Positions 9,335 to 18,565 of a stretch of DNA of 64,000 bases are shown piece after piece. The stretch's first letter is position 1; each line of letters starts with the position of its first letter. The notes under the pieces were generated by a model. The model searched no databases. It saw only the letters and a list, made by a program, of their open reading frames with translations, and had not been told where the DNA came from. The position numbers and the translations under genes are program-made. Source of the DNA: Iodidimonas sp. SYSU 1G8 (GTDB taxonomy: Bacteria; Pseudomonadota; Alphaproteobacteria; SMXS01); assembly GCF_039655775.1 (NCBI RefSeq), contig NZ_JBBYXJ010000001.1:1470001-1534000 (forward strand), written 5' to 3'.

Positions 9335-10753
9335 ATGAACAAACCGGCAGCTTTTGACGAAATGGCGCTTACCGACGGATCGGTACGTTCCATCTACCGC
9401 AATGTCGATAAATGGCTGCGTGAAGCAGCGCTCGACCGGCTTGACCTCAAGCGCCTGGAAGCGGACACGATCTTCCGCCGACTGGGCATCACATTCTCGG
9501 TTTATACGGAAGGCGGCGATCCCGAACGGCTGATTCCCTTCGACATCATACCCCGCGTCTTCGGCGCCGATGAATGGCAGCGCCTGTCGGCCGGCGCCAT
9601 CCAACGGGTGAAGGGCATCAACGCGTTCATCCACGATATCTATCACGACCAGGAAATCCTGCGGGCCGGCAAGGTGCCCGCCGCCCAGGTGCTGCGCAAC
9701 GACCAGTTCCGGCCCGAAATGCGCAACCTGGACGTTCCCCGGGACATCTACGCCCATATCGTGGGCATCGACATGGTGCGCACGGGCGAGAACGAGTTCT
9801 ACGTGCTGGAAGACAATGCCCGGACGCCGTCGGGCGTGGCGTACATGCTGGAAAACCGCGAAGTGATGATGCGGCTGTTCCCCGAGCTTTTCGCCAGCCA
9901 GCGCATCGCGCCCGTGGACAATTACGCCACGGAGCTGTTGCGCACCTTGGCGAGCGTCGCGCCCGCCTATGCGTCGGATCCCACCATCGCGGTGCTGACG
10001 CCGGGAATCTACAACAGCGCCTATTTCGAACATGCCTTCCTCGCCGAGGGGATGGGCGTGGAACTGGTCGAAGGTCAGGACCTGTTCGTCGAGAATGCCC
10101 ACGTCTACATGCGCACGCCCGCGGGCCCGAAGCGGGTCGATGTGCTCTACCGCCGGCTGGATGACGATTTCCTCGACCCCCTCGCCTTTCGTCCAGATTC
10201 GGCGCTGGGCGTCCCCGGCCTGATGAGCGCCTACCGCGCCGGCAATGTGAACATCGCCAATGCCGTGGGCACAGGAATTTCGGATGACAAGTCGATCTAT
10301 ACCTACATGCCCGAAATCATCCGGTTCTATCTGGGCGAAGAGCCGATCCTGAACAACGTGCCGACCTATAGCTGCCGCGACGAGAGCGACCGGAAATACG
10401 TTCTGGAGCACCTGCCCGAGCTGGTGGTCAAGGAAGTACACGGCTCCGGCGGCTACGGCATGCTGATCGGTCCGACCTCCACCAAGGAGCAGTGCGAGGA
10501 ATTCGCCAAACGCATCAAGGCGAACCCGGATGGCTACATCGCCCAACCGACGCTGGCGCTGAGCACCTGCCCCACCTTCGTCGAAAGCGGCATCGCGCCG
10601 CGCCACGTTGATCTGCGGCCCTTCGTGCTGTCGGGCGATCAGGTGCGGATGGTGCCCGGCGGGCTGACGCGAGTCGCCCTGCCCGAAGGCTCGCTGGTGG
10701 TGAATTCCAGCCAGGGCGGCGGCACCAAGGATACCTGGGTTCTGGAGGGGTGA
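9335..10753 (+). CDS. Circularly permuted ATP-grasp type 2 protein (DUF404/DUF407)
   Basis: 472 residues. Landmarks of the family are AFDEMALTDGSVR at the start, ITFSVYTEGGDPERLIPFD, GINAFIHDIYHDQEIL, FYVLEDNARTPSGVAYMLENR and VVKEVHGSGGYGMLIGP. The family is a permuted ATP-grasp predicted to act as an amino-acid or peptide ligase; its substrate is not established. I start at the ATG at 9335, which matches the usual N-terminus. The open frame extends to 9146 but would swallow the sigma-54 promoter at 9260. First gene of a four-gene operon; the alpha-E gene follows after ten bases. Confidence 0.93.
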   Translation: MNKPAAFDEMALTDGSVRSIYRNVDKWLREAALDRLDLKRLEADTIFRRLGITFSVYTEGGDPERLIPFDIIPRVFGADEWQRLSAGAIQRVKGINAFIHDIYHDQEILRAGKVPAAQVLRNDQFRPEMRNLDVPRDIYAHIVGIDMVRTGENEFYVLEDNARTPSGVAYMLENREVMMRLFPELFASQRIAPVDNYATELLRTLASVAPAYASDPTIAVLTPGIYNSAYFEHAFLAEGMGVELVEGQDLFVENAHVYMRTPAGPKRVDVLYRRLDDDFLDPLAFRPDSALGVPGLMSAYRAGNVNIANAVGTGISDDKSIYTYMPEIIRFYLGEEPILNNVPTYSCRDESDRKYVLEHLPELVVKEVHGSGGYGMLIGPTSTKEQCEEFAKRIKANPDGYIAQPTLALSTCPTFVESGIAPRHVDLRPFVLSGDQVRMVPGGLTRVALPEGSLVVNSSQGGGTKDTWVLEG

Positions 10754-10763
10754 GACCGGATTC

Positions 10764-11711
10764 ATGCTGAGCAGGACCGCAGACAATCTTTACTGGATGG
10801 GCCGCTATATCGAGCGGGCCGAAAACAACGCCCGCATCCTCGACGTGGCGCACCGCATGTCGTTGTTGCCGTCCCTGACGGGCGAGCATCGGACGGAATG
10901 GCAGTCGGCCATCACCATCTCGGGCGGCGAGGCGGATTTCGCCGAGAATTACGGCACGCCGAACGAAACCAACGCCGTCTATTACATGGCGCTGGACCGG
11001 GATAACGCCTCGAGCATCTATTCCTGCCTCAAGGCGGCACGCGAGAACTGCCGGGCGATACGCCATGCGGTGCCGACCGAGGTGTGGGAGGCGGTGAACA
11101 CCACCTGGTTCGAGATTCGCGACATGACCCAGACCCGGCTGCAGAGTCGCGGGGCGCAGCAGTTCTACGACTGGGTCAAGGAACGCTCCAGCCTGTTCCG
11201 GGGCGTTACCGTCGGCACCATGCTGCAGGACGATTCGTTTCACTTCGCGCGCCTGGGGACCTTTCTTGAGCGAGGCGACAACACCGCCCGCATCCTGGAC
11301 GTGAAATTCCATATCCTTCTGCCCAAGGGCGAGCAGGTCGGTGGCGCACTGGACTACTATCAGTGGACCGCGCTGCTTCGCTCGGTGTCGGCCCTGCGAA
11401 ACTATCGCCGGGTGTTCGGATCGGAAGTGGTGCCCTCGCTGGTGGCGCAGCTGCTGATTCTGGTCGATGCCATGCCGCGCTCGCTGCATCACTGCCAGAG
11501 CGAGATCGTGGCGCATCTTGATGCCCTGGGAATCGCCTATGGCAAGCGGCACGAGTGCCACCGCATGGCCGGCGAGGCGCACGCCAAATTGCGATTCGGC
11601 AAGATCGAACACATATTCGACGTTGGCCTGCATGAATACCTGACGGATTATGTCGAGCGTAATGCCAAACTAGGCGTCGAAATCGCCGACAACTTCCTTC
11701 TAGCCCGGTAA
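10764..11711 (+). CDS. Alpha-E domain protein (DUF403)
   Basis: 315 residues, all-helical. It begins MLSRTADNLYWMGRYIERAENNARILDV, the hallmark of the alpha-E family, and has a second internal copy of the motif at FLERGDNTARILDVKFH near 170. Alpha-E proteins occur almost always beside a permuted ATP-grasp and a transglutaminase-like protein and are thought to be part of the same ligase/peptide system; no activity is proven. It sits three bases before the transglutaminase start, so translation is probably coupled. Confidence 0.93.
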   Translation: MLSRTADNLYWMGRYIERAENNARILDVAHRMSLLPSLTGEHRTEWQSAITISGGEADFAENYGTPNETNAVYYMALDRDNASSIYSCLKAARENCRAIRHAVPTEVWEAVNTTWFEIRDMTQTRLQSRGAQQFYDWVKERSSLFRGVTVGTMLQDDSFHFARLGTFLERGDNTARILDVKFHILLPKGEQVGGALDYYQWTALLRSVSALRNYRRVFGSEVVPSLVAQLLILVDAMPRSLHHCQSEIVAHLDALGIAYGKRHECHRMAGEAHAKLRFGKIEHIFDVGLHEYLTDYVERNAKLGVEIADNFLLAR

Positions 11712-11714
11712 CCC

Positions 11715-12551
11715 ATGGATCTGCACGTCGAGCACACGACAGAATACCGCTACAGCCTTCCGAGCCGCCATTCCATCCAGTACATCCGGCTGACGCCCCC
11801 GTCCAATGAAGGGCAGACCGTCAGGTACTGGCAGATCGACGCCCCGGAACGGTTGACCCAATGGTATGACGGGTTCGGCAATATCGTGCATACGCTGGTG
11901 ATGAACAGCGAGCACGAGGCGTTGCGGCTCACCGTTCATGGCACGGTATCGACGAGCGACACGAGCGGCGTGCTCCCCAGCGCGGAACGGCCGGACGCCT
12001 CGCTGTTCCTGCTGCAGCCAACGGCGCTGACCCGGGCCGACGAGGACATGGCGCGTTTCGTCGAATCACTGGGCCGGCCGGACAGCTCGGGGCTGATCGG
12101 CTACCTGCATGTTCTGATGGCCGCGATCCGGGACCGGGTGGATTACCTCCGCGGCGAAACGGACGTCGCCATGACGGCGGCGGAAGCGTTCCTTGCCGGG
12201 GCCGGATTCTACCAGGACCATGCCCATATCTTTGCCGCCTGCGCCCGGCTGGCCGGTCTGCCGACGCGCTATGTCAGCGGCTATCTGTGCGACACGTTGG
12301 ACGGACACGCGCGGGATTCGAGCCATGCGTGGGCCGAAACGCTCGTACCTCATTTGGGCTGGGTCGGATTCGACCCGGCCAATGGCATCTCTCCGGACGA
12401 CCGTTATATCCGGATCGCCTGTGGCCGCGACTACCGGGACGCAGCGCCCGTCCGCGGCATCCGGAGTGGCGGCGGCGGCGAGGTCCTCGCCATGCGCGTC
12501 GCCGTGCTGGATGCCGCCGATTCCGACGCCACGGCCCAGGTCCAGAGTTAG
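11715..12551 (+). CDS. Transglutaminase-like protein with the catalytic Cys replaced by Tyr
   Basis: 278 residues: an N-terminal beta domain (1-95, starting MDLHVEHTTEYRYSLPS) and a transglutaminase core (about 130-235). The family's GVCQDHAH catalytic motif here reads GFYQDHAH: Tyr166 (codon TAC at 12210-12212) stands where the nucleophilic Cys (TGC or TGT) belongs. The other triad members look intact (His204 in SSHAWAE, Asp220 in GFDPANG). Other cysteines (176, 192) are away from the active-site position. The protein is therefore predicted inactive as a protease or transglutaminase and may bind substrate only, unless the base is a sequencing error. Third gene of the Anbu operon. Confidence 0.92.
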   Translation: MDLHVEHTTEYRYSLPSRHSIQYIRLTPPSNEGQTVRYWQIDAPERLTQWYDGFGNIVHTLVMNSEHEALRLTVHGTVSTSDTSGVLPSAERPDASLFLLQPTALTRADEDMARFVESLGRPDSSGLIGYLHVLMAAIRDRVDYLRGETDVAMTAAEAFLAGAGFYQDHAHIFAACARLAGLPTRYVSGYLCDTLDGHARDSSHAWAETLVPHLGWVGFDPANGISPDDRYIRIACGRDYRDAAPVRGIRSGGGGEVLAMRVAVLDAADSDATAQVQS

Positions 12552-12622: not shown

Positions 12623-13375
12623 GTGACCTATTGCGTCGGCATGTTGCTGTCATCGGGTCTGGTGATGCTTTCGGATTCCCGTACCAATGCGGGCATGGAC
12701 CACATTTCCACCTTTCGGAAGATGTTTGTGTGGGAAGTGCCCGGCGAACGGGTGATCACACTGATGACGGCGGGAAACCTGTCGATCAGCCAGACGGTCG
12801 TCAATCTGCTGAAGGAGCGGATCGCCGAAGGCGGCGAGTCGGCCGAGACACTGTTGAACGCCACCTCCATGTTTCGCGTCGCCCAGCTCGTCGGCGACGC
12901 CGTCGGTCAGGCCCGCAAGATGTACGGCGAGGCGCTGGAAGCCGAATCGCGCGGCTTCAACGTTTCGCTGATCCTGGGCGGGCAGATCAAGGGCCGGGGA
13001 CTCCGCCTGTTCCAGATCTATTCCGCCGGAAACTTCATCGAAGCGACCGTCGAGACGCCCTATTTCCAGGTCGGGGAAACGAAATACGGCAAGCCGATTC
13101 TCGACCGCGTGCTGAATCACAACACCCCGCTGACCGGCGCGATGAAGCTGGCGCTGATTTCCATGGATTCGACGCTGCGGTCGAATACGTCCGTCGGCGC
13201 GCCGCTCAATCTGGTGGTTTACGAGCGGGATGCGCTGACCCTGGCGATGAACAGGATCATCCGGGAGGATGAACCCTATTTCCATACCATCCGCCACATG
13301 TGGTCGAACGCGCTGCACAACGCCTATGTCGACCTGCCAGAGCCGGACTGGCGCCAGACGTCCTTCGACGTCTGA
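12623..13375 (+). CDS. Anbu proteasome-type peptidase homologue
   Basis: 250 residues, HslV/proteasome-beta fold. It starts MTYCVGMLLSSGLVMLSDSRTNAG; removal of Met exposes Thr2 as the N-terminal nucleophile, and the SDSRTNAG segment is the Anbu signature (LSDSRT contains the conserved Asp). Anbu assembles into open-ring or helical particles; its substrates are unknown. The start is GTG at 12623, preceded by AAGGAGAA, and no other start keeps Thr at position two. It lies 71 bases after the transglutaminase-like gene and is followed by a strong terminator, closing the operon. Confidence 0.93.
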   Translation: MTYCVGMLLSSGLVMLSDSRTNAGMDHISTFRKMFVWEVPGERVITLMTAGNLSISQTVVNLLKERIAEGGESAETLLNATSMFRVAQLVGDAVGQARKMYGEALEAESRGFNVSLILGGQIKGRGLRLFQIYSAGNFIEATVETPYFQVGETKYGKPILDRVLNHNTPLTGAMKLALISMDSTLRSNTSVGAPLNLVVYERDALTLAMNRIIREDEPYFHTIRHMWSNALHNAYVDLPEPDWRQTSFDV

Positions 13376-13522: not shown

Positions 13523-16500
13523 TCAGTCGGTGCCGCTGCGAAGCACGTTGGTCGCGCTGTTGCCGATCGCCGTTGCACCAACCGAGTTGCCGCGAACGGT
13601 CAAGCTGCTGTTGTTGCTGGCGGCATTGATAGTGGCCACGCCGCCGATCCCGATAGCCACGCCATCGACCGAGGCGCTGACGGTCGTGCCGTTGTTGGTC
13701 TGCAGGTTGGAGATACCCGCCGAAGGATGCTGGAAGGTGCCGGTGTTGAGCACCAGATTGTTGATCGCTTCGTTGCCGATCGCGGTCGCCTGTACCTGGT
13801 TGCCTTCGACGCTGAGCGCACTGTTGTTCACGCCAGTGGTGTCTTGCAGGCCGTCAATGCCGATACCGACCAAGCTGATGTCAGCCGACACCGTATTGCC
13901 GTCGGTGCTCTGCACGTTCAGCACCGCATAGTCGGTCCCCGTCACAGTTACCGGCGAAGAGGCCGTGGGATCGATGACCGAGCCTGCACCCGAGCTCTCC
14001 TGCAACGTGGCGCCTGCCGAAGAGAGCAGAACGTTGGTTGCGCGGTTCGCCGTGGCGATTGCGTTGACTGCGTTGCCGCCCACGATCAGTGCGCTGTTTT
14101 CCGCGCCTTCGTCGATGTTGCCGGTCAGGATGGCAACACCAGTGACGTCGGCGAGAATTTCACTGCTGGTCTGGACCTGCAGGTTGGCCACGACACCAGT
14201 CGCATCGCTGGACGACCCAGCAGTCAGCACCAGAGCATTGGTCGCGAGCAGGCCCCGCGCTTCGGCCTGAACCACGTTGTCGCTGACCGTGACGGCGTCG
14301 AAGGAGTAATCTTCAAGTCCGCCAGCGACGATCGCCGCACCGGCAATCGAAGCCGTGAAGCTTGCATTGTCGGCGAGCTGTGCGTTCAGCACCGAGAAAC
14401 CAGCCTGAATTTCGGTCGGGTCAGTGCCGCCCAAAGCCTGGCTGTAAGGCGCGTTCGCCGAGATCGATGCCTCGGCCGTAGCACGAAGCATGTTGTTGGC
14501 GGTGGCACCGATGGCGGTCGCCATGATGTCATTGCCTACGGCGCTGAGAGCCACACTGCCGTCGCTGCGGGTGTCGTCCGCAATGGCGGTAATACCGGCC
14601 AGGAATACGCTCGCATCGGTCACGCTGCCATCACCGATGGACTGCAGCGAAACTACAGAGGCACCCGGTGTACGGTCATCAACCGGATTCGAGTTGATGT
14701 TGGCCGACGCCGTGATGTTCAGGGTGTTGGTTGCGTTGTGCTGCGCGGCCTGGGCCAAGATCAGGTTGTTGTCGGCGCTGACGGAACCGCTGGTCACGTC
14801 ACCGGCGACGATCGCGCCGATCAGCGTGCCGTTGACTTCGGCGTTGACCGCAACCGGGGTATCGAGATTGCCCTGGACGTTGACGACGGAGAGAGACGCA
14901 TCGGTACCGACATCGGGACCACCGGCGGGATCGTAGACGGTGAGGTTGTCACCGTTGCGGAACTCGACGTTGGTACCGCCGCTGTTCAGCACGTTGGTCG
15001 CACGGTTGGCGGAGGCGAGTGAGGCCACCGCGTTGCCGCTGGCAGTGAAGGAGCCGTTCTCGACGTTCTCCGAGTCGGTCAGGACAGTGATGAAGGTCCC
15101 GTTGTTCGACGCGCTGTAGGTCACAGGCGCATCGGCGAGCTGCAGGTTAGCGACGACAGCGGAAGCTTCGTTCTGGGTGTAGTTCAGCGCCATCGAGTTG
15201 ACAGCGTCGTTACCGCGGGCCTCGGCCACGACCACGTTGCTGTTGGCGGTCAAGCTCGACCCAATGATCTCGTCGTCAAGCGCACCGCCGAAGACCGAAC
15301 CCGCCTCGACCGAGATCGCCGTACCGATAATGGTGGACGACACGTCGACCGAGTTGACCTGACGGGACGCGACAGTGAACGCGGTCTGATCGACGATAAT
15401 TTCATCGCCATCCACGGTGGTCAGCTGGTCCTGCGGCGCCGAATTGGCGACGGTGGTGCCAGAAGACGTCAGCGTGTTGGAGACATTGTTCGCACGGGAG
15501 ATGGCACGGACCGCGTTACCGTCAACGCTCAAGTTGCTGGCCACGAGATCGGTCGTGTCGTTCCGGTTAACATCGACCGCGATGGTGGCATCGTCGATGA
15601 TCGTGGAGAAACCACCGCTGGTCTGGTTCGACAGACCATACTGATTGGACGCGATGGTCGCGATCGGACCGTTGGTAGCCGCGGCGCCAGTGATATCGGC
15701 GTCGCTGAGATCGAAGCTGCCGACATTAAGGGTCAGGGTATTCGTGGCATCGTTGCCAGCGGCGAGCGCGGTGATGCTGTTGTTATCCGCGTCGATGTCG
15801 CTCCGTTCGAGGTCATCATCATCGATGGCGACGTTAATGGTGATGTCGGCGTCGAAGATGCTGACCGCGACTCCGCCGGTGCCCAAGCTCTCGAAGGCTT
15901 GTTCGTTCACCAGCAGAGATTCGCCCTGAGCATGAGTGCCCGTGGTCGAGAGGGTGGCGCTGTCCGTACCATTCACCGTGGCGCTGTCGATGACACCGAC
16001 GATGTTCTGCGTCTGCGCCGTGACGGCAACGGTGTTGGTCGCCTGGTTGATACGCGCCGATGCCAGCATGCTGTTGTCGCTTGCCGTCGCCGAGACGTCG
16101 CTGATGGCGTCGTCGCCGGAGATCAGATCGATCGTGATCGCAAGACCATTCTGGCTGACCGCCATCTGGGCCGAGGAGCCGTTATTGTCCTCATCGGCGA
16201 GCGTCTGAACGTTGACCAGACCGCTGGATGCCTCGAGGGTCGTGGCATTTACCGTGATCTTGTTGGTCGCCTGGTTAAGCGTGGCGCTGGTGGTGGCGCT
16301 GTTGTCGCTGGCGCTGAAGTCGCTGTTCACGATTGAGCCAACAACCGAGCCAACCGTCAGGTTGATCAGGTCGCCCGTGGCGGACGCCGTCACGATCGCC
16401 CCTTCGAGGTCTTCGACCGACTGATCGTTGACCAGCGCGAAGCCCGAGTCGAGCGCGGTGAACGGCACGCCAGCGCCGCGCTGCACGGAAGCGGCAGACT

Positions 16501-18565
16501 GGAACAGCTGTCCATCGCTGACGTCGACACCGTCAACCAGGATCGAGTTTGTCGTTGCATCAGCCAGGTTGCCCCAGACGCGCGCGTCGAAGGTATTGTT
16601 ATCAACAGCGACGGCAGCTTCGTCGACATTGGCCGGGCCATTCTCGCCCACATCGACGTCGATGAAAGCGGGCAGACCCGTCTGCGGCGCGATGGACGCC
16701 GTCAACTGGGTGCCGTCCTCAACCGTCTGCGAGCTCAGGATCGCGACCGAGGCCGCGATGGTGGTCGCTTCAATGGCGATGGATGCTTCGGTCGAGAGGT
16801 TGCCGATTGCACGGGCCGTGAACTCGTTGTCGGAGACGCTGAGGTTCGAGGTGATGAACGAGTCGTCAGCAAGATTGACGTCGATCGACGCCAGCACGTC
16901 CGCGACAGCGCTGCCACCGTCGAGCACCTGGGCGTTCAGGATGCTGATGTCGGCGGATACGCTGCCGGTCTGGGCAACGCGATTGACCAGGATCGGATTG
17001 AGAATCAGCGCGCCTGCGCCATCCACGCTCGTGCCAGTGATGTCGATCTTCGAGGAGTGGCTGTTGCCGGTCGCCAGCGCCGAGGCTTCATTGCCGTCGA
17101 CGGTGACATCGCTGTTAATCACCTGACCGATACCGCCGAACTCGGCGACGGTGACGGTGAACAAGGTGTCGTTGCTGGCGCTCTGCGTGCCTTCGGTATA
17201 CTGGAGCGAATTGATGGCGACCAGCGAGTCGAAATCGGTGGTGTTGGCGACGAGGATTTCGTTGCTGACGCCGGAACCCGTGGCCGACGCGCTGGCGATG
17301 TTGTCGCTCGCGCTCACGGACGAGTTGTAGGAATCACGCACCAGGACATTGAAGTCACCCTGATCGATGTCCGCCGTTACGCCAACAGCGCTGAACTGGG
17401 CATTGGCGATGAACAGGTCGCCATTGACGTTGCTTTCATCGACGCCGGAGAAATCGACATTGTTCAGACGCGAGCTGGCCACGCCATCCTGGCTGAGGCC
17501 TGCGGCCAGGTTGACTGAATTGGTCGCCTGGTTGCTCGTCGCCGCCGCAGTGATTTCGTTGCCTTCGAAGGTCAGCGAGCTGCCCGTCAGTGTGGCGATG
17601 TATTCGTCGGCGAGATAGTTCTGCGTGTCACCGGCTTCGATGACCACATCCTGGACCAGCGCATCAATCGAGAAGTCGCCGTCATTGCCCTGGATGTTGA
17701 TCGCGCCAGCCGTGCCGACCAGCGTAATCGCACCGCCAGCCGTGAGCGCAACGCCCGAGACGGCGTCGTTACCAGTGAAGGTCGCCGCGATGGTGTTGTC
17801 GGTGACGACGAGCGGCACATTGACAATGGCGGCCTCGGCATCGACCCGGGCCAGAAGACCAATGCGGGAGTCGGTGATCGTCGCGTCCATGGCGGGCGCG
17901 CCGGTGTTGAACTGAGCGGAACCGACCAGAGCCGTCGCGCCAGCCGTCAGCAAGGGAACAGCCGTCGAGATGGTGGCCTGACCGACTTCCGTGCTGTTCT
18001 GCAGGAAGTTCACGTCGCCCGCGATTGAACTGTTCGCGTTGTTTCCCTTGCCGTCGGCGGTGATGGCGTTGCCATCGACTTCGACAGAGCTGCCAGCACC
18101 AAGATCGATGACATCGATCTGGATGTCGCCTAGCTCAACGGACGCGACAATATCAGAGCTGTCACTATTGAGCTGCAACACGCCGAGCGTAGCGGCGCCA
18201 TTGTCGCCAGGAATGCCGCCGTTGGTAGCGGCGTAAAAATCTACAACAGAGAGCTTAGTGTTGCCCGTAGCGATAGCGAAAATCTCGTTCTCGCTATCGA
18301 TGAGATTGTTTGTTCCGCCGCCGAGGTTATGGCTCTGGCCACGATCTGTGGGCAAGCCAATCACAATATCCGAGACATCGCCGGTGAATTCGCCAGCACT
18401 GTTGATCTGCCCCACTTCGGTCGGAAGCGCACTCGAACCGGCAGTGATTGTCAGGGACGGATTAGTCAGGTCGATGACCAGATTGTTCGCCTTCGCGCCA
18501 GACATGCCGGCAGCCGTGGCGAGCGCCACCGCGCTCACGGTCGTGAGTACACGCAACTTAAGCAT
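13523..18565 (-). CDS. Giant secreted beta-repeat protein 1 (1680 residues)
   Basis: A Sec signal peptide (basic MLKLR start, hydrophobic stretch, AKA-N cleavage near residue 27) precedes about 1650 residues of Asn/Thr/Ser/Ala/Val/Asp-rich repeats. Some 17-18 units of roughly 90-100 residues each carry two marks: a short strand of form hxNxQ (for example LANLQ, VLNAQ, LVNDQS) and, later, a block of form V-x-[DG]-N-x3-A-x-A-x-[GA]-N-x-A-x-N. I find no cysteine, very few lysines and one Trp (in RVWGN). No autotransporter barrel, LPXTG, RTX nonapeptides or C-terminal membrane segment is visible; the protein ends ATNVLRSGTD. Likely an extracellular or surface beta-solenoid or fibre; export route unknown. 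GAGGGGGAA precedes the ATG. Confidence 0.9.
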   Translation of the reverse strand: MLKLRVLTTVSAVALATAAGMSGAKANNLVIDLTNPSLTITAGSSALPTEVGQINSAGEFTGDVSDIVIGLPTDRGQSHNLGGGTNNLIDSENEIFAIATGNTKLSVVDFYAATNGGIPGDNGAATLGVLQLNSDSSDIVASVELGDIQIDVIDLGAGSSVEVDGNAITADGKGNNANSSIAGDVNFLQNSTEVGQATISTAVPLLTAGATALVGSAQFNTGAPAMDATITDSRIGLLARVDAEAAIVNVPLVVTDNTIAATFTGNDAVSGVALTAGGAITLVGTAGAINIQGNDGDFSIDALVQDVVIEAGDTQNYLADEYIATLTGSSLTFEGNEITAAATSNQATNSVNLAAGLSQDGVASSRLNNVDFSGVDESNVNGDLFIANAQFSAVGVTADIDQGDFNVLVRDSYNSSVSASDNIASASATGSGVSNEILVANTTDFDSLVAINSLQYTEGTQSASNDTLFTVTVAEFGGIGQVINSDVTVDGNEASALATGNSHSSKIDITGTSVDGAGALILNPILVNRVAQTGSVSADISILNAQVLDGGSAVADVLASIDVNLADDSFITSNLSVSDNEFTARAIGNLSTEASIAIEATTIAASVAILSSQTVEDGTQLTASIAPQTGLPAFIDVDVGENGPANVDEAAVAVDNNTFDARVWGNLADATTNSILVDGVDVSDGQLFQSAASVQRGAGVPFTALDSGFALVNDQSVEDLEGAIVTASATGDLINLTVGSVVGSIVNSDFSASDNSATTSATLNQATNKITVNATTLEASSGLVNVQTLADEDNNGSSAQMAVSQNGLAITIDLISGDDAISDVSATASDNSMLASARINQATNTVAVTAQTQNIVGVIDSATVNGTDSATLSTTGTHAQGESLLVNEQAFESLGTGGVAVSIFDADITINVAIDDDDLERSDIDADNNSITALAAGNDATNTLTLNVGSFDLSDADITGAAATNGPIATIASNQYGLSNQTSGGFSTIIDDATIAVDVNRNDTTDLVASNLSVDGNAVRAISRANNVSNTLTSSGTTVANSAPQDQLTTVDGDEIIVDQTAFTVASRQVNSVDVSSTIIGTAISVEAGSVFGGALDDEIIGSSLTANSNVVVAEARGNDAVNSMALNYTQNEASAVVANLQLADAPVTYSASNNGTFITVLTDSENVENGSFTASGNAVASLASANRATNVLNSGGTNVEFRNGDNLTVYDPAGGPDVGTDASLSVVNVQGNLDTPVAVNAEVNGTLIGAIVAGDVTSGSVSADNNLILAQAAQHNATNTLNITASANINSNPVDDRTPGASVVSLQSIGDGSVTDASVFLAGITAIADDTRSDGSVALSAVGNDIMATAIGATANNMLRATAEASISANAPYSQALGGTDPTEIQAGFSVLNAQLADNASFTASIAGAAIVAGGLEDYSFDAVTVSDNVVQAEARGLLATNALVLTAGSSSDATGVVANLQVQTSSEILADVTGVAILTGNIDEGAENSALIVGGNAVNAIATANRATNVLLSSAGATLQESSGAGSVIDPTASSPVTVTGTDYAVLNVQSTDGNTVSADISLVGIGIDGLQDTTGVNNSALSVEGNQVQATAIGNEAINNLVLNTGTFQHPSAGISNLQTNNGTTVSASVDGVAIGIGGVATINAASNNSSLTVRGNSVGATAIGNSATNVLRSGTD

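Follow-up and report, generated by a model that had tools for sequence, protein, structure and literature searches.

The transglutaminase-like protein (TG) of the Anbu operon in Iodidimonas sp. SYSU 1G8 (G000) carries Tyr in place of its catalytic Cys within an otherwise intact gene. It is a genuine member of a known operon, is probably inactive as an enzyme, and probably forms part of a recurrent loss of TG function which points to a core made up of the three remaining genes. The window, that is the whole stretch of 64,000 nucleotides that was analysed, contains the complete operon (Table 1). The TG ORF (11715-12551) encodes the motif LAGAGFYQDHAHI in translation, and codon reading gives GFYQDHAH as the form of the catalytic motif in this protein. 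The first-pass annotation had described the replacement of Cys by Tyr, the retention of His204 and Asp220 and an intact remaining reading frame. This description holds throughout: codon 166 reads TAC, both other residues of the triad are in place, the ORF runs to its full 278 amino acids with both Pfam domains, and every coordinate given was right. It had not included V165F, directly beside Tyr166, and A202S, which are further changes at the active site.

Table 1. Features of the Anbu operon in the window and of the second transglutaminase (TG2) of the same genome.
Feature	Position	Strand	Evidence or state
Circularly permuted ATP-grasp protein, intact	9335..10753	+	PF14403 1.7e-166; 88% identical in G001
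Alpha-E protein, intact	10764..11711	+	PF04168 3e-98; 92% identical in G001
Anbu-operon TG-like protein, 278 aa, intact ORF	11715..12551	+	Pfam, AlphaFold, 3isr match
Codon 165, TTC, Phe replacing invariant Val	12207..12209	+	Val in 80/80; GTG in G001, GTC in G007
Codon 166, TAC, Tyr replacing catalytic Cys	12210..12212	+	Cys in 80/80 reference orthologues, G001 and G007
Codon 202, Ser replacing invariant Ala, two residues before catalytic His	12318..12320	+	80/80 column
His204 of triad, kept	12324..12326	+	His in 80/80
Asp220 of triad, kept	12372..12374	+	Asp in 80/80
Anbu (proteasome beta homologue), intact	12623..13375	+	PF00227; 84% identical in G001
TG2	C1:2006028-2006942; L095 9028-9942		Cys intact, motif GVCQDFAH

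The TG belongs to the Anbu operon by its domains PF08379 (Bact_transglu_N) and PF01841 (Transglut_core), which score 68.2 and 59.6 bits and are both over the Pfam cut-off, by its place between Alpha-E and Anbu, and by its orthology to other operon TGs. With the operon as described for Yersinia bercovieri and Pseudomonas aeruginosa the window operon shares the gene order, the two TG Pfam domains, the His and Asp of the TG and intact Anbu, Alpha-E and ATP-grasp partners, but its TG differs in the change of Cys to Tyr, of the preceding Val to Phe and of the Ala before the catalytic His to Ser (PMC6376114, PMC5666114). Anbu itself keeps its N-terminal Thr, D17 and the K32/33 region (TYCVG...SDSRTNAG...FRKM), the candidate catalytic residues given in PMC6376114. 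Convergent with Anbu lies a minus-strand ORF of 1680 aa (13523-18565) with repeated segments resembling 'N-x-A-T-N-x-L' and a signal-like start (MLKLRVLTTVSAVALATAAGMSGAKA), and in the related genome G002 Anbu is followed by a similar, long ORF of 1673 aa on the minus strand (L111 8964-13985).

Residue 166 is the catalytic position of the protein. The whole-length structural match to the window TG is 3isr, a putative cysteine protease or TG-like protein from Cytophaga hutchinsonii (Z 26.2, 3.0 Å over 248 residues), followed by transglutaminase 3 and factor XIII with Z of about 12. The likeness to 3isr extends from the fold to the catalytic motif, where phmmer aligns GFYQDHAH with GVCRDFAH, so that GVCRD of 3isr stands against GFYQD of the window TG. 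All relatives fetched by protein search have GVCQD at the motif, with a single instance of GVCHD. Structure modelling, which had been proposed in the first-pass annotation, gives an AlphaFold model (mean pLDDT 90.4, pTM 0.88) in which Tyr166 opens the helix 166-179, where the Cys normally sits in the TG fold. Of the residues expected in an active TG or cysteine protease the protein has His and Asp and lacks Cys, and in having lost a catalytic residue while keeping its fold it resembles a pseudoenzyme.

The comparison with orthologues, also proposed at first pass, finds Val165-Cys166 in 80 of the 80 reference orthologues, a set of alphaproteobacterial and some gammaproteobacterial operons from which the window gene alone departs. 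Cys166 is likewise present in the nearest relatives, G001 of the same genus (72% identity) and G007 of the same family (60%), and among relatives that keep the TG, Tyr166 occurs only in the window genome. Identity to the TGs of other Alphaproteobacteria with the same operon is 40-48%. Across ATP-grasp, Alpha-E, TG and Anbu the window operon is 88, 92, 72 and 84% identical to that of G001 and 78, 74, 60 and 72% identical to that of G007, the TG changing fastest. Four columns that are invariant in all 80 orthologues are broken in the window TG (V165F, C166Y, A202S and V260M), three of them at the active site in sequence, while none is broken in the TG of G001 and two are in that of G007. Invariant columns account for a larger share of the changes unique to the window TG than of those in its relatives (4/21 vs 2/78, p 0.018; 3/20 when C166Y is left out, p 0.056), in a test which is small and began from a chosen site.

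Most invariant columns away from the active site are kept, and apart from that site the protein equals its active sister in conservation. Tajima's test counts 21 unique changes both in the window TG and in the Cys-bearing TG of G001, and no general decay or acceleration relative to the sister is visible. Maximum likelihood branch lengths give a hint of TG acceleration on the window branch, at 0.263 for TG vs 0.028-0.104 for the other operon genes; the corresponding values for G001 are 0.194 and 0.064-0.097. For the window branch omega = 1 is rejected by a codon model, a result to be read with caution since dS is saturated and the branch also spans time before the loss.

A search with Anbu in the same family finds close orthologues in G002, G003, G005 and G006, in which 76-100 bp separate the stop of Alpha-E from the start of Anbu and no TG lies between them. 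The other three proteins of these genomes are close to those of the window (ATP-grasp 88-90%, Alpha-E 91-93%, Anbu 81-84% identical). A TG search finds no Anbu-type TG elsewhere in G002, G005 and G006, and in G003 a separate copy that is 42% identical. In a concatenated tree the four genomes form one clade (UFBoot 99) beside G000 and G001 (98); when ATP-grasp and Alpha-E are analysed singly, G000 falls outside instead, but the support is weak (52-65). Because the four form one clade and G007, which lies outside the genus clades, keeps a Cys-bearing TG, the simplest history is a single loss of the TG in this clade. The first-pass annotation had taken Cys in all close relatives as evidence against its reading, and Cys is indeed present in G001 and G007, but this is not decisive, as four congeners have no TG in the operon.

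These loci show several further features. G003 contains an extra set of ATP-grasp, Alpha-E and Cys-bearing TG genes (L094, G003:C1:593000-605000; 60, 41 and 42% identical), and Anbu is not detected within its 12-kb stretch. The Alpha-E proteins of the four TG-less triads (L111, L112, L113, L114) have a common Gln/Thr-rich C-terminal tail of 30 aa, and Anbu there starts with TTG. A possible origin of the tail in the C-terminal end of the TG found no support, with protein similarity at the level of shuffled sequences (p 0.41-0.54) and a DNA match that fell short of the best shuffle. G003, G004, G005 and G006 also have a second Anbu, which is divergent (43-44% identical; L115, L116, L117, L118), with no ATP-grasp, Alpha-E or TG detectable near these loci.

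Anbu occurs in 47 of 190 sampled alphaproteobacterial genomes, and 30 of the loci were read. Half of these (15/30) have a Cys-bearing TG upstream of Anbu (L147, L149, L150, L154, L157, L160, L164-L168, L170-L173, the Cys state of L170 being taken from a pattern scan), two have a Cys-less TG, namely the window and L162 of G101, and six have Alpha-E directly before Anbu without a TG (G003, G090, G103, G065, G136, G189). Outside the window genus such TG-less triads occur in five other alphaproteobacterial families, and any TGs found elsewhere in those genomes are TG2-like or of other kinds. In the remaining seven loci an Alpha-E or TG of the operon type was not found within 1.5 kb upstream, and these were not classed. 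In three loci (L156, L159, L161) the TG that lies just downstream of Anbu, on the opposite strand, is of a different type (GSCRDFALL or GTCRDFALL), an arrangement that differs from the four-gene operon. The TG of G101 has Pro for Cys (GTPDD) and HCW in place of HAW; the change to Pro was not found across its family, four relatives having Cys. Among 385 genomes the pattern scan detected TGY at the motif in 26 and gave two genuine cases without Cys, Tyr in the window and Ser in G298. It used a fixed Cys-His spacing and a non-G second codon base, so that Gly, Arg, Trp, AGY-Ser and other spacings escape it; G101 was missed by it and found through Anbu. The Ser-bearing TG of G298, a genome that is 78% complete, belongs to an Anbu operon whose contig ends within Alpha-E, and two congeners have Cys. 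Its Ser may still act as a weak nucleophile.

The window genome also encodes a second transglutaminase, TG2, in a cluster (G000:C1:1997000-2012000, L095) with a TG-DUF2126 gene and an ATP-grasp/Alpha-E fusion, which TG2 adjoins; a small hemerythrin-like or similar protein follows the cluster. TG2 has the same two Pfam domains as the Anbu-operon TG, but is 30% identical to it and retains its Cys, and no Anbu was seen in its 15-kb locus. Each of the seven genus members has TG2 with Cys (84-87% identical), and it was not detected in G007. Outside the genus, the five TG-less genomes and G101 likewise carry a Cys-intact TG, one that resembles TG2 more closely than the Anbu type. By this correlation TG2 possibly compensates for the Anbu-operon TG, and TG2 may be common as well where the Anbu TG is active.

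Several readings other than a relaxed requirement for catalysis were weighed. An error of sequencing or assembly at 12211, which the first-pass annotation had offered, would need only one base, as TAC is one step from TGC. V165F and A202S, however, also lie in columns invariant in 80/80 orthologues of the same gene, V165F needs its own base change or changes, and the genome consists of two contigs at 100% completeness and 0.15% contamination; with three linked active-site changes in such an assembly an error is very unlikely. A-to-I editing by TadA, converting UAC to UIC and restoring Cys in part of the mRNA, would draw on the commonest recoding by the bacterial enzyme, Tyr to Cys (PMC12255301), at an A that is predicted to lie in a small hairpin loop. 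The site nevertheless reads TTCTACCAGG, i.e. TACC rather than the required TACG or YTACGAA, and changes to motif positions abolish editing or nearly so (PMC12255301), which together with the fact that V165 would stay unrestored makes recoding the least probable of all the readings. The protein may also still be an enzyme that uses another nucleophile such as Cys236, a residue that is Phe or Val in G001 and G007. But Cys236 is also found in 8/80 orthologues which keep the catalytic Cys, so that it is no special compensation, and it does not stand at the N-terminus of the catalytic helix; this is highly improbable, and no TG is known in which Tyr serves as the nucleophile.

A stable pseudoenzyme, in which catalysis is lost and the protein is kept for binding or scaffolding with Alpha-E, ATP-grasp, Anbu or a substrate, deserves more weight. 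The fold (pLDDT 90) and the ORF are intact, there is no acceleration relative to the sister, invariant positions beyond the active site are mostly kept, and G101 retains its Cys to Pro TG at full length with 68.8 bits against Transglut_core. Precedents exist as well: protein 4.2 (7uzs), which is without TG activity, is among the structural matches, and the TG-like domain of the yeast protein Cyk3, which has the same anatomy as the window TG in that His and Asp are kept and Cys is lost, is still used (PMC4758748), although Cyk3 is a fungal cytokinesis protein with an SH3 domain and no orthologue of the window TG. Against this, four congeners manage without the TG, so that the genus can dispense with any role of this kind, and Tyr occurs in one genome only and was not found in a second species. 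The first-pass annotation had named the right class, a pseudoenzyme or recent mutation with Cys lost and His and Asp kept, but its suggestion of Anbu recruitment or substrate binding finds no support here. Pull-downs in Y. bercovieri gave no specific interaction of Anbu with the operon proteins (PMC6376114). On balance a maintained binding role is possible though not the favoured reading, and far more probable than the preceding ones.

The explanation considered likely, with some reservation, is that the window TG lost its transamidase or protease chemistry under relaxed selection on TG catalysis in the operon. In the TG family the Cys thiolate, activated by His and Asp, forms an acyl-enzyme. 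With Tyr at 166 formation of an acyl-enzyme would not be expected, and the pocket would probably be filled by the bulky ring. The absence of the TG in four congeners points to such relaxed selection, under which one lineage of the genus (G002, G003, G005, G006) would have dropped the gene and the window lineage would have lost the active site. The TG would then be an accessory whose role has relaxed, possibly because the Cys-intact TG2 covers for it. Since ATP-grasp, Alpha-E and Anbu persist without a TG or with a Cys-less one, these three proteins are probably the working core of the system. It is proposed more tentatively, as a possible rather than a favoured model, that the TG is separable from this core and may turn non-catalytic (Tyr, Ser or Pro) before it is lost.

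The excerpts of the operon descriptions contain no demonstration of Anbu activity, and proposals with a catalytic TG include protein tagging, peptide synthesis and ammonia-releasing TG reactions (PMC6376114, PMC5666114). TG-less triads and Cys-less Anbu TGs are not described in these excerpts. A Cys to Tyr TG in an intact operon, together with relatives which have no TG, suggests that the other three genes can be kept without TG catalysis. If this is true, the Anbu pathway would be independent of TG chemistry, which would speak against tagging models that make use of the TG. With Cys in G001, Tyr in the window genome and no TG in the operons of G002, G003, G005 and G006, a single genus presents three states of the operon and offers natural material with which this could be tested.
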